DNA of 64,000 nucleotides. Source: Chloroflexota bacterium (lineage in GTDB: Bacteria; Chloroflexota; Dormibacteria; Aeolococcales; Aeolococcaceae). Each line of letters opens with the position of its first letter. Positions within the stretch are counted from its first letter, which is position 1. The stretch lies in contig VBIQ01000004.1 in NCBI GenBank assembly GCA_005880985.1, forward strand, positions 124,001-188,000, given 5' to 3'. Position numbers and translations under genes: made by a program. The notes beneath the pieces were generated by a model. The model was not told the DNA's origin and searched no databases. It was given only the letters and a program-made list of their open reading frames with translations. Shown here piece after piece: positions 377 through 8,082 of this stretch.

Positions 377-3130
377 ATGCCGCTTGACGAGTACCGGCGC
401 AAGCGCGATTTCACCCGCACCCCGGAACCGCGAGGCGGTGCTGGTGATGGGCCCGGGCCGCCGGCATCCGCCGGACCCACCGCCGCCTTCGCCGGCTGGG
501 ACGTTCTGCCCCAGGGACGGCGCTTCTGCGTGCAGATGCACCGGGCCACCCGGCTCCACTTCGACCTCCGCCTCGAGCACGCCGGGGTGCTGCTCTCCTG
601 GGCGGTGCCGCGAGGACCATCGCTGGACCCGGCTCGCAAGCGTCTCGCGGTGCACGTGGAGGACCACCCGATCGAGTACGGCGAATTCGAAGGGGTGATC
701 CCCGAGGGGTACGGAGCGGGCACGGTGATGCTCTGGGACGCCGGTGGCTTCCAGTGGACGGGGCAGGCCGCCGAGGACGTCGACGCGGCTCTCGCCAAGG
801 GTCACATCCGCTTCATCCTCGACGGCATCAAGCTGCACGGCGAGTTCGACCTCTTTCAGACCGGCCGCCCCGCAGGCGGCGCCGACGGCGGGGACCCGGC
901 GCGCAACTGGTTGCTGGTCAAGCGTGCCGATGCCGCGGTGGTGCCAGGCATGGAGGCGGTGGCCCTCGACGTTTCGGTCAAGACCGGCCGCAGCCTGGCG
1001 GCCATCGCCGCCGCGGTGGGAGGGGATCGCAAACATCCCGAGCTTGCCGTCGCTGCCGCGCGCGAGAGCGTGGAGCAGCTGGTCGCGGGCGCGCCACCGG
1101 CACCGTTTCCAGAGGATCCCGAGGTCATGCTGGCCACTCCGCTGGACCGGCCATTCAGTCGGCCCGGCTGGTTCTTCGAGCTCAAATACGACGGCGTGCG
1201 GATCCTCGCTTTGGTGCGGGACGGCAGGCTCGTGCTGCGAAGCCGCAAGCGGCGCGACGAGACCGTTCGCTATCCCGAGGCGCGCGCCCTGGTCGACACC
1301 CTGTCGGTGGGTGACGCCGTCGTCGACGGCGAGATCGTCGCGCTCGACACGGAGGGGCGGCCCTCCTTCGAACGCCTGCAGAGCCGCATCAATCTGGGCT
1401 CCGACGAGGTCGAACGGGTCCGACGGCGGGTGCCCGTCACCCTGGTCGCCTTCGACGTCCTCTATGCCATGGGGCGGGACCTGCGCGGGCTGCCGCTGGA
1501 GCGGCGGAAGCGGATCCTGCGAGCGATGATCCGTCCCTCGCCACTGGTGCTCGTCGCCGATCACGTCGAGGCCGACGGAGTTGCGCTGTTCGCGGTGCTG
1601 CGCACACGTGGTCTGGAGGGCATGGTCGGCAAGCGGGCCGACTCGCGCTACGAGTCGGGGCGGCGTTCTCCGGCGTGGGTCAAGGTCAAGGCATGGAACA
1701 CCCAGGATTGCGTCATCTGTGGCTACACCGCCGGTCGCAAGGGCCGCGGGCCGCTGGGAGCGCTGGTACTCGGCGTCTTCGATCAGGACGGTGTGCTCCG
1801 TCATGCCGGACAGGTCGGCTCGGGGTTTGACGAGCCCACCCTGCGCTGGCTGCGCGAGCAGCTCGACGCCGTCACCACCGCGAAGAGCCCATTGCATCCG
1901 GTGCCCGCCACCGACCAGAGGGTGACCTGGGTCCGGCCCGAGCTGGTCTGCGAGGTGCGATACAGCGAATGGACCGCGGCGGGAACGCTGCGTCAGTCGA
2001 GCTTTCGTGGCTTGCGTCCCGACGTGGCCCCCGAGGACTGCGTGCGCGAGCAGCCCGCCGCGGCGAACGAGACCGGTGCCGATGCGAGCGACGCGGCAGG
2101 CGACATCGGCGACCCAACGGGCGAGGTGAGCGAGGCGGCGACCGCGGCGGCGCGCGAGCCTGTGAAGCCGCCGTCTCCGTCCGCCGGCTCGACCGGCTAC
2201 CGGACTCCGCCGGAGCTCGAGGAGGCGCTGCGCCTGCTGCCGTCGGTGGGCGACGGCGGCTGGTGGGAGGTCGCTGGCCGCAGGGTCAAGCTCACCAATC
2301 CGGACAAGCTGCTGTGGCCCGACGACGGCATCAGCAAGCGCGACATGGTCGGCCACTACGTGCGACTCGCTCCGCTGATCCTTCCCTACCTGGGCCAGCG
2401 TCCGCTCAGCACCCAGGTCTTTCCCGATGGCATCGACGGCAAGTCCTTCTGGCGCAAGGACAAACCCTCGCACGCGCCGGCGTGGATCAACTCCTGGACC
2501 TATCACGGAGAGGAGGGCGTCAAGACCTACATCGTCGCCGAGGAGCCGGCCACCCTGGCGTGGCTCGCCAACGCGGGGGTGATCGACCTGCATCCCTGGC
2601 ACTCGCGCATCGACGAGCCCGATCAGCCCGACTGGGCGGTGTTCGATCTCGACCCGTTCGAGCCCGCGACCTTCGACGACGTGCGCGACGTCGCGCGGAT
2701 GGTCAAGACGGCGCTCGACCACTACCAGCTCGTCAGCGTGGTGAAGACCAGCGGCCAGACGGGATTGCAGATCTACGTGCCGCTGCGCCGGGGACCGGAC
2801 TACAGCGCCGTCCGCGGGTGGGTGGAGGAAGTGGCCCGCGCCATCGGCAGGCTGATGCCCGACCGCATCAGCTGGGAGTGGACGGTGTCACGCCGCAGCG
2901 GCCGCATCCGCATCGACTACACCCAGAACATCATCAACAAGACGTTGACCGCGCCCTACACGCTGCGGCCGGTGCCGCGCGCGCCGGTGTCGACGCCGAT
3001 CCACTGGGAGGAGCTCGACGACCCGCGGCTGCGGCCCGACGGCTGGACTATCGCCAGCATCGGCCAGCGGGTGGCCGAGGTGGGCGACCTCTTCGCTCCC
3101 CTGCTGACGGTCCAGCAGGACCTGCCGTGA
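377..3130 (+). CDS. ligD: Multifunctional NHEJ DNA ligase LigD (PE-LIG-POL order)
   Basis: This 917-residue protein is the end-processing and sealing enzyme of bacterial non-homologous end joining. Domains in order are: a 3'-phosphoesterase (about 40-170, motif HRATRLHFD with H55, H61 and D63); an ATP-dependent ligase (about 230-550, catalytic K270 in ELKYDG, motif IV EGMVGKR, motif V WVKVK); a linker rich in Ala, Gly and Asp; and a primase-polymerase (about 620-905, FDLD with D757/D759 as metal ligands). The order matches Pseudomonas LigD, not the mycobacterial POL-PE-LIG arrangement. The stop overlaps the next start by 4 bases, so it is coupled to the Zn-ribbon gene; ku follows about 1.2 kb downstream. 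Confidence 0.96.
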   Translation: MPLDEYRRKRDFTRTPEPRGGAGDGPGPPASAGPTAAFAGWDVLPQGRRFCVQMHRATRLHFDLRLEHAGVLLSWAVPRGPSLDPARKRLAVHVEDHPIEYGEFEGVIPEGYGAGTVMLWDAGGFQWTGQAAEDVDAALAKGHIRFILDGIKLHGEFDLFQTGRPAGGADGGDPARNWLLVKRADAAVVPGMEAVALDVSVKTGRSLAAIAAAVGGDRKHPELAVAAARESVEQLVAGAPPAPFPEDPEVMLATPLDRPFSRPGWFFELKYDGVRILALVRDGRLVLRSRKRRDETVRYPEARALVDTLSVGDAVVDGEIVALDTEGRPSFERLQSRINLGSDEVERVRRRVPVTLVAFDVLYAMGRDLRGLPLERRKRILRAMIRPSPLVLVADHVEADGVALFAVLRTRGLEGMVGKRADSRYESGRRSPAWVKVKAWNTQDCVICGYTAGRKGRGPLGALVLGVFDQDGVLRHAGQVGSGFDEPTLRWLREQLDAVTTAKSPLHPVPATDQRVTWVRPELVCEVRYSEWTAAGTLRQSSFRGLRPDVAPEDCVREQPAAANETGADASDAAGDIGDPTGEVSEAATAAAREPVKPPSPSAGSTGYRTPPELEEALRLLPSVGDGGWWEVAGRRVKLTNPDKLLWPDDGISKRDMVGHYVRLAPLILPYLGQRPLSTQVFPDGIDGKSFWRKDKPSHAPAWINSWTYHGEEGVKTYIVAEEPATLAWLANAGVIDLHPWHSRIDEPDQPDWAVFDLDPFEPATFDDVRDVARMVKTALDHYQLVSVVKTSGQTGLQIYVPLRRGPDYSAVRGWVEEVARAIGRLMPDRISWEWTVSRRSGRIRIDYTQNIINKTLTAPYTLRPVPRAPVSTPIHWEELDDPRLRPDGWTIASIGQRVAEVGDLFAPLLTVQQDLP

Positions 3131-3653: not shown

Positions 3654-4172
3654 ATGTCGGTGCTGCTGCTGAGTGCCTCACTACAGCCGGTCAACGTGAT
3701 CAGCCGGCGCCGGCTGATCATCCTCCTCAGCAAGCAGCGCGTGGCCCTCATGGATACCGAGGCGGAGCTGGAGGCGCTGGCCGCTCTCGAGGGTCGACGC
3801 TTCACCGAAGGGGTGATGGTGGTCAGACTGCTGCGCAACATCCACGTGCCCCGGCGCATGCTCCGTCCCAACCGTCGCAACCTGCTGCTCCGCGACGACC
3901 ACACCTGCCAATACTGCGGCCACGTCGGTCCGGCCTCGGACCTGACCATCGACCACGTTGTCCCGGTGTCGCGGGGCGGTGAGGCGGACAGCTGGGAGAA
4001 CCAGGTGGTTGCCTGCCGCCATTGCAACTGGCGTAAGGCCAACCGGCGCCCCGAGGAGGTCGGGCTGCGATTGCGACGGCGACCCACGCCGCTGACCCAG
4101 GAATACGCGCACATCCTCTTTCTGCGGTACCCGGAGCTGAAGGCCGCCTACGACGCCCTGCTCGCCGCATAG
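3654..4172 (+). CDS. HNH endonuclease
   Basis: This 172-residue protein has a C-terminal HNH nuclease domain. Motifs visible are CQYCG, then IDHVVPVSRGG (the catalytic HV-type histidine), an Asn in ENQVVACRHCN, and a second CxxC pair that should bind structural zinc. The first 75 residues (LQPVNVISRRRLIILL...) match the N-terminal region of stand-alone bacterial HNH proteins. The ATG at 3654 was chosen over longer in-frame extensions because a -10 box abuts it and the upstream translation is Arg-rich shadow. It sits between ligD and ku on the same strand. A part in end joining is possible but not shown; such HNH genes also occur alone. Confidence 0.88.
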   Translation: MSVLLLSASLQPVNVISRRRLIILLSKQRVALMDTEAELEALAALEGRRFTEGVMVVRLLRNIHVPRRMLRPNRRNLLLRDDHTCQYCGHVGPASDLTIDHVVPVSRGGEADSWENQVVACRHCNWRKANRRPEEVGLRLRRRPTPLTQEYAHILFLRYPELKAAYDALLAA

Positions 4173-4288
4173 CCCGCTCGATCTTGCGCGGCGCCACCTC
4201 CCCCAAAGGGGTGTTCCGGCCGGATGTGGCAGGAGCTGACAGGCCCCGACCGGGACATCCGCAATCGCCTTTCTGAGCCGGACGCGCC

Positions 4289-4294
4289 TATACT
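4289..4294 (+). promoter_or_regulatory. -10 box TATACT of ku (leaderless)
   Basis: TATACT is followed by exactly 7 bases and then the ku ATG at 4302. This places the expected transcription start at or within a base of the initiation codon. No Shine-Dalgarno sequence is present. Confidence 0.6.
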
Positions 4295-4301
4295 CGGCCG
4301 T

Positions 4302-5168
4302 ATGCCACGCTCCATGTGGCGGGGCGCCATCAGCTTCGGAATGGTGGCGATTCCCGTGCGGATGTACTTGGCGACGGAGTCGAAGAGCGTCTCCTTTCGC
4401 CTGCTCTGCCCCAACGACGGCCATCCCATCAAGAACCGTCGCTGGTGCCCGGAGGAGGACAAGGAGGTCCCCTGGAGCGAGGTCAAACGCGGCTGGGAGG
4501 TGGCCAAGGACGAGTACGTGGTCATCGAGGACTCCGACCTCGACCGCCTGCCGCTGCCCTCAACCCAGACCATCGAGATCCTCGAGTTCGTCGCCGACAG
4601 CGACATCGAGTCGGGGGTGTACGTCAAGGGCGCCTACTACCTGGAACCGGAGTCGGTCGGGGTCAAGCCCTACTACCTGCTCAAGCAGGCGCTGGACCGG
4701 AGCGGCAAGGTGGCCATCGGCAAGATCGCCCTGCGCGATCGTGAGCACCTCTGCCGGCTCGCCCTCCACGACCACGGCCTGCTGCTGAACACCCTGCACT
4801 GGCCGGATGAGATCCGCGACACCGGTGAGCTCACGCTTCCCGAGGAGCGGGTCGAGATTCACGAGCGTGAGCTGGAGATGGCCCAGCTGCTGATCGACAA
4901 CCTCACCGCCAGCTTCGACCCGAGCCGCTACCACGACCACTACCGAGAGGCGCTCACGGCGCTGGTCGAGGAGAAGCTGGGAACCCGTCCCGCCCAGCCT
5001 CGCGAGGTTCCGCAGCCGCCCCAGGTGATGGACCTGATGGCGGCGCTGAAGGCGTCCCTCGAAGCGTCCAGGCCACGCGCCGAGGCGGGGGAGAAGACGG
5101 CGAGCAAATCGTCGCGCCGCAAGGACGAGGCGGTCGCCGCGCCCACACGTCGACGAAAGGCCTCGTAA
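4302..5168 (+). CDS. ku: Ku homodimeric DNA-end-binding protein
   Basis: This 288-residue bacterial Ku forms a ring on double-strand break ends and recruits LigD. The N-terminus MPRSMWRGAISFGMVAIPVRM is family-typical. The core Ku beta-barrel follows (about residues 5-240, including KGYEV-like and PYYLL segments). A Lys/Arg-rich tail (about 250-288, EKTASKSSRRKDE...RRRKAS) should bind DNA or LigD. The start at 4302 is preferred over an upstream ATG at 4224 because of the leaderless promoter and family alignment. It lies 7 bases upstream of the degenerate ligase gene, so the two are probably co-transcribed. Length is normal for the family. Confidence 0.96.
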   Translation: MPRSMWRGAISFGMVAIPVRMYLATESKSVSFRLLCPNDGHPIKNRRWCPEEDKEVPWSEVKRGWEVAKDEYVVIEDSDLDRLPLPSTQTIEILEFVADSDIESGVYVKGAYYLEPESVGVKPYYLLKQALDRSGKVAIGKIALRDREHLCRLALHDHGLLLNTLHWPDEIRDTGELTLPEERVEIHERELEMAQLLIDNLTASFDPSRYHDHYREALTALVEEKLGTRPAQPREVPQPPQVMDLMAALKASLEASRPRAEAGEKTASKSSRRKDEAVAAPTRRRKAS

Positions 5169-5175
5169 CGCCCTC

Positions 5176-6288
5176 ATGGGCGAGGCGCCCATCTCCGCCG
5201 CGCGCGTGCGCCGGCGTTCCCCCGGCGGTCCGCCACTTCCGCTGAGCCTGCCTCCCGCCCAGACCCTGCCGCAGGGGCTGCGGCCGGAGATCGCCGTCCC
5301 CTGCTCCGCCGCCTTCGACGCGCCCGGTTGGCGCTTCTCCATCGACTGGGACGGGATGCGGTGCCTGCTTCTCTCCGACGGCGCCGGTGGGCTGCGCATC
5401 CAGGACGAGCGGATGCGTGACGTCACCGCTCTCTTTCCCGACCTAGTCGAGCCGTGCGCCGCTGCGCTTGCCGGGCGGCGCGTTGTGCTCGACGGAGTGA
5501 TCGCCGTTCTCGATCGCGAGGGCCGGCCGGATCTGCCGACGCTCGCCGTCCGGGTGTGCCTGCCACTGCGGACGGGCCGGCGCGCCGCCGCCGTGTTCAT
5601 CGCCACCGATCTGCTCCATCTCGAGGGCACCGCGCTGCTCTCGCGTCCGCTGACCTTCCGCCGCCAGACGCTGAGCCAGCTGGCTGGGGCAGAGACGCGG
5701 TTGCAGGTGCCCGACGACATCGCCGAGGAGGGCACTGCCCTGGCCGAAGCGGCGGAGGAGCGCGGCCTGGTCGCGATCGTGGCCCGGCGGGCGGACGCAC
5801 CCTACCGGCCCGGGGTGGCTTCCACCGACCGGCTGCGCGTCTCCCTCGAGGAGCGGGTCGACGTGGTCGCCACCGCGGTGCTCGGACCGGTGGCGCAACC
5901 GGCGGGGATGCTGATCGCCGAGTACCTCGAGGGCCGGCTGGTCCCCGCGGGCCGCATCGAGGCGGCCTGGCCGGCCGAGCAGCAGGAGTGGCTCCGCGGC
6001 ATCGTCGCCGGGCTTCGCTGCAGCGAGTCGGCGATCGACGCACCGCCCCCGGCAGGTCCGGTGACCTGGTTGCGGCCGGGATTGACCGTCACCATCCGCC
6101 ATGGCGGGCGCGCGGCCGACGGCACCCTCCGCTTTCCCGTCGCCGTCGCCCTGCGCGAGGACCGCGACCCGGCGTGGTGCATCCGACGTGACCCGCTGCC
6201 TCCGCCCGGCGAGAGCCGCCCCCCACGCGGCTTCCGTCCCACCGTCCTGCAGAGCCTGCCACTCGAGGTGCCGCCGCCTCCGTCGTGA
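5176..6288 (+). CDS. Catalytically degenerate ATP-dependent DNA ligase homologue
   Basis: This 370-residue protein aligns with the ligase and OB-fold region of LigD/LigC, but the catalytic motifs are eroded. Motif I (normally KxDG) reads DWDG, with D57 replacing the lysine that carries AMP. Motif III (DGE) reads DGV (VLDGVIAVLD). Motif IV EGMVGKR becomes RGLVAIVARR, and the motif V lysines become RLRV. The OB-like region is recognisable (about 235-340, VATAVLGPVAQPAG, VTWLRPGLTVTI). It cannot use the standard mechanism and may be a structural or scaffold protein for Ku/LigD. It follows ku by 7 bases and overlaps the HAD gene by 4. The frame is intact and codon use is normal, so it is not an ordinary pseudogene. 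Confidence 0.75.
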   Translation: MGEAPISAARVRRRSPGGPPLPLSLPPAQTLPQGLRPEIAVPCSAAFDAPGWRFSIDWDGMRCLLLSDGAGGLRIQDERMRDVTALFPDLVEPCAAALAGRRVVLDGVIAVLDREGRPDLPTLAVRVCLPLRTGRRAAAVFIATDLLHLEGTALLSRPLTFRRQTLSQLAGAETRLQVPDDIAEEGTALAEAAEERGLVAIVARRADAPYRPGVASTDRLRVSLEERVDVVATAVLGPVAQPAGMLIAEYLEGRLVPAGRIEAAWPAEQQEWLRGIVAGLRCSESAIDAPPPAGPVTWLRPGLTVTIRHGGRAADGTLRFPVAVALREDRDPAWCIRRDPLPPPGESRPPRGFRPTVLQSLPLEVPPPPS

Positions 6289-7127
6289 GCGTCCGTCTCC
6301 TCGCCGTCGACCTCGACGGCACCCTGGTGAGAGGTGATCGCACCGTCTCCGACCGCACGCGGGCCGCGCTGACAGGGTGCGACGACGCCGGAATTCGCGT
6401 GGTGGTGGTGACCGCGCGACGCTGGCTGGCGGCGGCACCGGTGCTCCGCAATCTCGGGTTGCAGGGCATGGCGATCGTCGCCGGAGGCGGCGCCGTGCGT
6501 GACATCGCCAGCGGCCGCGTCACCATGAGCGGCGTGCTGCGCGGCGACGCGCTCGCCGGTGCCGTCGACGCCATTCTCGCCAGCGGTCTGCAGCCCATGG
6601 TCGCGGTCGATCACGGGGAGCACTATCTGGCCGGCCATCCCCGCCACGACAGCAGCGCCACCGCTCGTCAGTTCGCCCGGGGACGGGTGACCCGCACCAC
6701 CGTCGACGCGATGCGCCGCGCGGTGGCCGCGCGAGTACTGGCGATGGGTCCGGCGTCGCGCATCGCCGCCGCGGCTCGCCGCTGCGTGGGACTCCCCTGC
6801 CACCTGATCATCCAGGACTGCATCCACCGCGTCGGTGGCGGAGGCGAGCGCGTGCTCGAGCTGCACGCCGCGGCCGAGAACAAGGGGACCTCGCTGCGAC
6901 GCCTGTGCCGTCAGCTGCGCGTCCCGATGGGCGCGGTGGCCGCCGTCGGCGACGCGCCCAGCGACCTGCCGATGCTCGAGGCGGTGGGCACCGCCGTGCT
7001 GATGGGACAGGCGGAAGCCGGCCTGCGGCGCCGCGGCATGGCCATCGCCCCGGCGGTCGATGCCGACGGCGCGGCATGGGCGATCGAACGCCTGGTTCTG
7101 TGCGCTGCCGCGCCTCAGGCCGCCTAG
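6285..7127 (+). CDS. HAD-superfamily (Cof/SPP-type) phosphatase
   Basis: This 280-residue Cof-like HAD hydrolase starts at a GTG overlapping the previous stop (GTGA). Motif I is DLDGTL near residues 9-14. Motif II lies in VVVVTAR. The Cof-type C-terminus has ENKGTSLRRLC (Lys) and GDAPSDLPML (motif IV, the acidic metal ligands). A cap domain occupies about residues 85-185. Such enzymes dephosphorylate sugar phosphates or cofactors; the substrate cannot be told. It is the last gene of the ku transcript, where a DNA-end role would be unusual, so linkage may be simply positional. Confidence 0.88.
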   Translation: MSVRLLAVDLDGTLVRGDRTVSDRTRAALTGCDDAGIRVVVVTARRWLAAAPVLRNLGLQGMAIVAGGGAVRDIASGRVTMSGVLRGDALAGAVDAILASGLQPMVAVDHGEHYLAGHPRHDSSATARQFARGRVTRTTVDAMRRAVAARVLAMGPASRIAAAARRCVGLPCHLIIQDCIHRVGGGGERVLELHAAAENKGTSLRRLCRQLRVPMGAVAAVGDAPSDLPMLEAVGTAVLMGQAEAGLRRRGMAIAPAVDADGAAWAIERLVLCAAAPQAA

Positions 7128-7191
7128 ACCTGCCCTGATTCGCGGTTTGGCGACGGTCTGGAGAAGCGTCGTTTGCCCCGCCGCGGGTTGT

Positions 7192-7209
7192 GGCATCATC
7201 AGTGATGCC
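7192..7209. terminator. Hairpin GGCATCA-TCAG-TGATGCC
   Basis: Perfect 7-bp stem with a 4-base loop in the gap between the HAD gene and the dimethylargininase-like gene, without a T-tract. It could end the NHEJ transcript or act in the leader of the next gene. Confidence 0.4.
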
Positions 7210-7272
7210 GCGGCGCGGGAGTCCCCGTACCGGATGCGATCGGCCCGTCCCGGCAGCATGTGGAGGACGGCG

Positions 7273-8082
7273 ATGGCCATCCTCATGTGCCGGCCCGAGC
7301 ACTTCGGGATCGAGTACGAGATCAATCCGTGGATGCATGTCGAGGTCGCCGTCGACCGGCAGCGCGCCCTGCAGCAGTGGCGGGCGTTGGAGCGCACCTA
7401 TGCGGAGCTCGGTGTCACCGTCGACTTCGTCGAACCGGTCTCCGGGCAGCCCGACATGGTGTTCACCGCCAACGCGGCCGTGCTCTGGAACGGTCGCGCC
7501 GTGCTCAGCCACTTCCGCCATCCGGAGCGGCAGGGCGAGGAACCCCACTGGCGGGCAGCTCTCGAGCGGCGTGGCTTCGAGGTGCAGGTCACGCCGCCGG
7601 GCATCGCCTTCGAGGGCGCCGGTGACGCGCTCTTCGTCGGCGAGCGCCTCTTTGCCGGGTATGGCTTCCGCACCGACCGCGAGGCGCACCGCCATCTCGC
7701 TCGCGCGCTCGGCGTCGAGGTGGTGTCGCTGGAGCTGGTGGATCCGCGCTTCTACCACCTCGACACCTGTTTCTGTCCGCTGGACGAACGCACCGTGATG
7801 TTCGCTCCCGAGGCGTTTGCGCCGCGCTCGGCACGCTTGATCCGGCGCCTGGTTCCGCACGTGATCGAGGTCCCGGTCGACGTTGCTGCCGGCTTTGCCT
7901 GCAACGCCATCGCCGTCGGCCATCGCGTGGTCTCCTCGCTGGCGGCCGAGCGGCTCGAGGGGCCACTTCATGACGCCGGGTTCGACACGGTGGTGGCGCT
8001 CCCGATGAGCGAGTTCATGAAGTCCGGCGGCGGCGTGCGCTGTCTGTCGCTTCCCCTCGACACCGGACGCGCAGTGGCATAG
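7273..8082 (+). CDS. Dimethylargininase-type amidinohydrolase
   Basis: This 269-residue member of the guanidine-modifying superfamily (DDAH/arginine-deiminase fold) hydrolyses guanidino compounds, for instance N,N-dimethylarginine to citrulline and dimethylamine. Visible active-site elements are QPDMVFTANA (Asp substrate contact), FEGAGDAL, the FYHLDTCF histidine, and the C-terminal nucleophilic Cys in GGGVRCLSLPL. Length fits DDAH (about 255-285). The ATG at 7273 was chosen over 7258 because GGAGG at 7262 is well spaced for it. No arginine-pathway neighbours are present, so the exact substrate is open; ornithine or arginine deiminase-like alternatives exist. Confidence 0.85.
   Translation: MAILMCRPEHFGIEYEINPWMHVEVAVDRQRALQQWRALERTYAELGVTVDFVEPVSGQPDMVFTANAAVLWNGRAVLSHFRHPERQGEEPHWRAALERRGFEVQVTPPGIAFEGAGDALFVGERLFAGYGFRTDREAHRHLARALGVEVVSLELVDPRFYHLDTCFCPLDERTVMFAPEAFAPRSARLIRRLVPHVIEVPVDVAAGFACNAIAVGHRVVSSLAAERLEGPLHDAGFDTVVALPMSEFMKSGGGVRCLSLPLDTGRAVA

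Follow-up and report, generated by a model that had tools for sequence, protein, structure and literature searches.

The window, the whole stretch of 64,000 nucleotides analysed here, carries a ligD gene of phosphoesterase-ligase-polymerase order (377..3130, + strand), an HNH-domain gene between ligD and ku (3681..4172, +; these are the coordinates of the stretch tested, and the start is not fixed) and ku itself (4224..5168, +; Pfam Ku 140 bits, TIGR02772 281 bits). The encoded LigD has an intact motif I lysine and is the likely active partner of the protein studied here. After the ku stop at 5168 and a gap of 7 bases, a further gene starts at 5176. This gene (5176..6288, +) encodes the pseudo-ligase, a ligase-fold protein of 370 amino acids without catalytic residues, with an ATG start and no internal stop, in keeping with a preliminary description that had reported an intact frame tightly packed after ku. 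A HAD frame begins at 6285. The position between ku and a HAD gene, given in the same description, is correct; as a part of the system the HAD gene falls away, since a search of the 6 kb downstream at 17 related loci gives no match to it. Among the loci examined it is therefore local to this genome, and a role as conserved partner is ruled out. A DDAH/arginine-deiminase-like gene (window 7060-8082) has matches in 15 of the 17 related loci, at most 100 nt from the pseudo-ligase in 14 of those. The HNH gene is also found between ligD and ku wherever related loci show ligD on the upstream side of ku (11 of 11); its PADLOC matches are weak and look generic. A PADLOC search gave no match for the pseudo-ligase.

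The fold of the protein is that of a ligase. The NTase (adenylation) domain covers about residues 38-226 (5287..5853, +), as placed by PF01068, the alignment to Mycobacterium tuberculosis LigD (MtLigD) and the model, and the OB domain (PF04679) covers about residues 227-338 (5854..6189, +) and retains R327 and D329 of motif VI. Both Pfam domains score over their cut-offs (DNA_ligase_A_M 40.6 bits against 26.2, DNA_ligase_A_C 38.1 against 27.5), the AlphaFold2 model has a pLDDT of 88.8, and its top PDB matches by Foldseek are DNA ligases, which bears out the adenylation and OB outline proposed earlier. For TIGR02779, the NHEJ ligase family of LigD LIG and LigC, the pseudo-ligase scores 135.2 bits, below the cut-off of 227.75, and LigD of the same window scores 291.2; the identity of the pseudo-ligase to the ligase domain of this LigD is 31%. 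Pfam finds ligase domains only in the pseudo-ligase and no phosphoesterase or polymerase, so that it is not a trifunctional LigD. Because the control model of the window's own LigD ligase domain is poor (pLDDT 71.1, 11 sequences), the open or closed pose of the pseudo-ligase model is not interpreted.

Replacement of the catalytic residues

According to the available part of PMC8656161, the side chains of MtLigD that touch ATP are E479, K481, R486, R501, E530, E613, K618, R629, K635, K637 and H465. Ten of them were mapped through an alignment counted from K481, and H465, which is not reliably placed, is excluded. The family alignment consists of the query and the best 120 of 130 homologues (121 rows, with 118 or 120 rows in some columns). 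Nine of the ten mapped side chains are replaced in every aligned member among the matches listed, seven of them by one near-fixed residue each. At the motif I position of the query (residues 55-62, SIDWDGMR; 5338..5361, +) the alignment to LigD places D57 where the lysine would be, as the preliminary description had it, and among the matches listed K481 is replaced by Asp in 116/118 and by Glu in 2/118, with lysine in none. Among the same matches, E479 is retained in 0/118 (Ser in 115/118), R501 in 0/118 (Glu in 113/118), E530 of motif III in 0/120 (Val in 117/120), E613 in 0/121 (Pro, Ser, Ala, Val or others), K618 in 0/121 (Arg in 121/121), R629 in 0/121 (Ala in 113/121), K635 in 0/121 (Arg in 116/121) and K637 in 0/121 (mostly Ala or Pro). 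The sole contact retained is R486, present as R62 in 118/118 of the matches listed. Compared with LigD, the query motifs read SIDWDG at motif I (D57 for Lys), DGV for DGE at motif III, VxxxxR for ExxxxK at motif IV and RVS for KxK at motif V. None of the features of an NHEJ ligase, the motif I lysine, the motif III Glu, the motif IV Glu and Lys and the motif V KxK, is kept. As controls, 42/42 LigD or PE-ligase rows from the class retain the lysine, KxK and the Glu of motif III; at least one gene among them was read twice.

In MtLigD, E613A or K637A singly abolishes nick sealing, as stated in the available text of PMC8656161. Given these single substitutions, we strongly infer that the pseudo-ligase has no ligase activity; probably it can neither bind nor transfer AMP. 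A lysine relocated elsewhere in the protein is ruled out: the query has no lysine at all, 64 of the 118 members of at least 320 aa are lysine-free, no member of this set has more than 3 lysines, and the most frequent lysine column is filled in just 11 of 121 rows, all among the matches listed. Close homologues with KxDG were likewise looked for and not found (0/118 with lysine among the matches listed), which confirms the loss as conserved and rules out an isolated decaying copy. Motifs III, IV and V had also been described as eroded. Their replacement is confirmed, and mere erosion is not, because the Lys of motif IV and the first of the two motif V lysines have become Arg and the pocket looks rebuilt. 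In addition, at 14 positions at least 95% of the pseudo-ligase family among the matches listed has one residue and at least 90% of LigD/PE-ligases another.

The gene beside ku in three families

The genome of the window belongs to the GTDB family f1, and f3 and f4 are two related families of the same class, in which a comparison finds Ku in 84 of 110 genomes. Among the 32 genomes of f1, 25 have Ku and all 25 of these carry the pseudo-ligase, which ties the loss to ku, a link that the preliminary description had proposed to check. In a 26th carrier, G410 (71% complete), the gene lies near a contig end, with no Ku and no second LigD-type match; such a second match is present in the other 25 carriers. 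Four f1 genomes lack Ku and also any ligase match at 1e-40, and LigD alone is found in two (G411, 79% complete; G419, 75% complete). The gene of G401 is split across two contigs, and locus L025, by coordinates on the same contig, has its start after ku. Motif I of 25 distinct f1 loci has Asp in 20 and Glu in 5, Glu being commoner here than among the homologues listed. In 32 of 38 loci, a set in which some were fetched twice, the distance from the ku stop to the nearest possible pseudo-ligase start is -3 to +27 nt; in the other six, contig ends or long ku frames block a reading of this distance by script. At L010, L022 and L066 ku stays open past the start of the pseudo-ligase and reads over it in another frame; the cause is an extended Ku tail or else a faulty assembly.

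Twenty loci come from named genomes: 12 Candidatus Dormiibacterota/Dormibacteraeota, 5 Chloroflexi, and one each of Changshengia, Aeolococcus (class Candidatus Dormibacteria) and 'bacterium'. One homologue among the matches listed is named Candidatus Angelobacter. In a 400-genome sample of the phylum at E 1e-60, the matches, live ligases included, are confined to this class (40 genomes). The f4 genome G439 (9% contamination) also has an f1-type ligD-ku-pseudo-ligase cluster (L106, contig C176), possibly on a stray contig. Taken on sequence evidence, the ku-linked pseudo-ligases are a real and conserved family, and the protein would qualify as a pseudoenzyme, in which catalytic residues are missing and the gene is still conserved.

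Of the 18 genomes listed for f3, the ku-adjacent ligase was read in 16 (G159 and G427 are outside the count). Like f1, these loci have lost the lysine beside ku, keep the C-terminal tail described below and, in the six genomes whose LigD was read, have a LigD with intact lysine. The lysine of the standalone ligase directly after ku is kept in 0/16 loci. Unlike in f1, it is replaced by Ala (12) or Ser (4), and the best 120 of 396 f3 homologues have A 106, S 9, T 3, V 1 and D 1 at this position. Among these 120, K635 and K637 are lost in all, whereas R486, R501 and the motif IV Lys K618 are kept in 120/120, R629 in 119 and the motif III Glu E530 in 118. The lysine loss in f3 is possibly separate from that in f1.

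This difference bears on two explanations in which the pocket still works. The protein might be a nucleotide sensor, binding ATP or another nucleotide without reaction and switching a partner. MtLigD K481M still binds ATP in crystals, according to the part of PMC8656161 at hand, and R501, K618 and E530 persist in f3 as counted above; in the f1 type, however, all but one of the ten mapped ATP contacts have disappeared, two of them with a reversal of charge, and we consider a sensor very unlikely. A new enzyme, in which a rebuilt pocket (D57, D59, D106, R204, R219, R221) would catalyse a different reaction, is similarly improbable. The new pocket residues are near-invariant, but the f1 and f3 pockets differ, which speaks against a common new chemistry, and the only clear matches in family and fold searches are ligases.

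For f4, the standalone ligase was read in 32 of 42 genomes. These ligases resemble those of f1 in their place after ku, their tail and a common clade (100/99), and differ in that 26 of the 27 ku-linked copies keep all six scored catalytic residues. None of the five copies without ku close upstream does so, and two of them have Arg for the lysine. These five unlinked copies with eroded motifs are L110, L111, L109, L101 and L112 (genomes G247, G167, G391, G454 and G036). By coordinates, ku is closely followed by a gene for a LigD-type polymerase, and not by one for a ligase, on contigs G167:C82, G247:C77 and G391:C107, which belong to three of these genomes. K481 is kept in all of the best 120 of 1121 f4 homologues; these all lie close to a single sequence, and the eroded copies are not represented among them. 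The f4 genomes searched also carry a PE-ligase, with a polymerase gene beside it in 7/11. Since f4 has a PE-ligase plus a live ku-linked ligase, a second ligase alone does not force the loss.

When 67 ligase domains are placed in a maximum-likelihood tree without their motif columns, the ligases found beside ku in f1, f3 and f4 form one group (100/99) that excludes LigD and PE-ligases, and within it f3 and f4 are sister groups (97/86). The long row of L004 keeps the outgroup from falling on a single side of one branch. The lysine state changes three times on the best tree. The AU test rejects one clade for all lysine-less copies (p = 3.3e-07), and with it a single loss, barring a regain of lysine; f1 and f3 forced together, as for one shared loss, are not rejected (p = 0.377). 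The tests thus support at least two separate lysine losses unless lysine was regained, and the best tree has three. On a plain reading, an ancestral, active, standalone ligase linked to ku would have lost catalysis more than once.

The gene might also be a relic, under relaxed selection since LigD took over and carried along beside ku. The unlinked f4 copies look so (0/5 with all six residues), and over distant pairs its dN/dS exceeds that of ku. The dN/dS set holds 18 of the 36 loci, those with a pseudo-ligase match of at least 250 bits to the query, and the median over 141 pairs with usable dS, which are non-independent (many repeats or distant) and in many cases near saturation in dS, is 0.50 for the pseudo-ligase and 0.35 for ku. 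The medians of the other neighbours are 0.29 for ligD (21 pairs) and 0.15 for the HNH gene (80 pairs), the lowest of the four genes, so the pseudo-ligase evolves faster than its neighbours. Within one genus, however, dN/dS is low (L012-L015 and L017, 10 pairs; 0.10-0.14 for the pseudo-ligase and 0.07-0.14 for ku), and the near-fixed substitutions span 121 proteins with identity down to about 41% among the matches listed. A relic is disfavoured and, in our view, most improbable.

The ku-adjacent proteins have about 25-30 extra residues after the OB domain. In f1 a linker of variable sequence (mean top-residue fraction 0.47) precedes the motif F-x-P-T-[VL]-L-x-x-L-P (0.76), which in the query is FRPTVLQSLP (residues 353-362; 6232..6261, +). 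The motif is found in 120 of 121 family members among the matches listed and has related tails in the ku-adjacent ligases of f3 and f4. The tail is present in 15 of 16 f3 loci, ending in LPI (6), LLI (5), LPL (3) or LPF (1), so that LLI replaces LPx in 5 of the 16. In f4, 30 of 31 complete copies end in FPF, as do 119 of the best 120 of 1121 homologues. The motif lies at the very C-terminus in f3 and f4 and about 8 residues before it in f1. Read by eye, the tail is absent from 15 rows of PE-ligases from 14 genes, in which the ligase domain likewise comes last, and from the LigC-like copies L003, of the window's own genome, and L166. The short motif persists where separate lineages lose catalysis, as a docking peptide would be expected to, and the tail probably is one. 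The unlinked, eroded f4 copies have it in all four cases with a visible end, one with three more residues, the fifth copy being cut by a contig end; the partner of the tail need therefore not be Ku.

A possible structural role in end joining

Bacterial end joining is usually pictured as the work of two proteins, Ku and LigD. The conserved, ku-linked dead ligase suggests that in some bacteria this pair has gained a structural subunit. The explanation we favour, with slightly less than even confidence, is that the pseudo-ligase serves as a non-catalytic subunit, docking on the Ku complex where DNA is broken and helping LigD of the same cell to join the ends. Ku would bind the broken DNA ends, the pseudo-ligase would dock through its tail and ligase-fold body and stabilise or position the Ku complex, and the intact LigD would seal. 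The reading draws on the fixed loss, the near-fixed new residues, the ku linkage, the co-occurring LigD-type ligase and the shared tail. We infer that selection would keep docking and not catalysis. The docking partner is probably Ku, with LigD the alternative, and the effect on joining is probably positive. In the available part of PMC9638933, the M. tuberculosis Ku core directly binds the LigD ligase domain, and the accessible text of PMC3694833, PMC9638927 and PMC11754673 describes inactive LIG4/Dnl4 as supporting joining by another ligase.

Against this explanation stand the charge of the protein, the median dN/dS above that of ku over the 141 pairs, the variation of the tail in place and sequence together with its persistence in unlinked f4 copies, and the single shared loss for f1 and f3 that the tree test does not reject. 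The mean net charge of the NTase domain is -6.0 in f1, -2.6 in f3, +0.1 in f4 and +2.4 to +5.0 in the LigD/PE-ligase groups, and the f1 OB domain is mildly positive (+2.2). The acidic NTase domain argues against strong DNA contact there and suits protein contacts better. It would also suit a brake or decoy, a dead ligase that occupies the ligase docking site on Ku, or the DNA ends, and so limits or delays joining by LigD. The docking evidence and the coupling with ku in all Ku-bearing f1 genomes serve this explanation equally; however, no regulatory input is visible, and the inactive-ligase precedents are, in the available text of PMC9638927 and PMC11754673, supportive and not inhibitory. We regard a brake as unlikely. 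The charge bears as well on an end-binding protection factor, whose OB domain with R62 and R327 would, with no partner involved, keep hold of DNA ends at nicks or breaks to shield or align them. D59, R62, R327 and D329 are conserved and the OB charge would suit it, but the changes of K481 to Asp and R501 to Glu reverse the charge at phosphate-contact positions, the NTase domain is acidic and the tail is left unexplained, which makes such a factor quite unlikely. A scaffold-like role, with the pseudo-ligase as a docked subunit helping LigD, appears to fit best.

More broadly, in NHEJ of the Dormibacteria a Ku-docked dead ligase might be a third core protein, taking the structural part of LIG4 and its partners in eukaryotes. 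Parallel evolution in at least two lineages might have led to it, a ku-linked ligase losing its catalysis and keeping its docking tail. We put this forward tentatively, as possible and short of probable. With one ku-linked gene present in live form in f4, partly changed in f3 and fully rebuilt in f1, the role is directly testable. The automatic name 'bifunctional non-homologous end joining protein LigD', carried by many of these proteins in one source, is misleading for the lysine-less copies.

The preliminary description knew of no pseudo-ligase in bacterial NHEJ, and none was found described in the open-access literature searched. One close known relative is the ligase domain of MtLigD (Rv0938; PDB 1vs0, 6nhx, 6nhz), the best sequence match of the pseudo-ligase and the first by Foldseek. 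The two share the NTase and OB fold and the equivalent of Arg486, but in the pseudo-ligase the catalytic Lys and eight more ATP contacts are replaced, the polymerase and phosphoesterase domains are absent and a C-terminal tail is added. LigC and LigC-like proteins are, in the available parts of PMC7719229 and PMC5124664, also single ligase domains, whereas the LigC-like L003 and L166 keep the motif I lysine and have no tail. In the proposed role, the pseudo-ligase resembles inactive LIG4/Dnl4, which aids Ku-dependent joining without catalysis, as far as the accessible portions of PMC3694833, PMC9638927 and PMC11754673 report. Those proteins are laboratory mutants of an active enzyme, whereas the pseudo-ligases are a natural dead family. 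A non-catalytic role of an NHEJ ligase, known in eukaryotes from such mutants, may thus exist in bacteria as a natural, dedicated protein.
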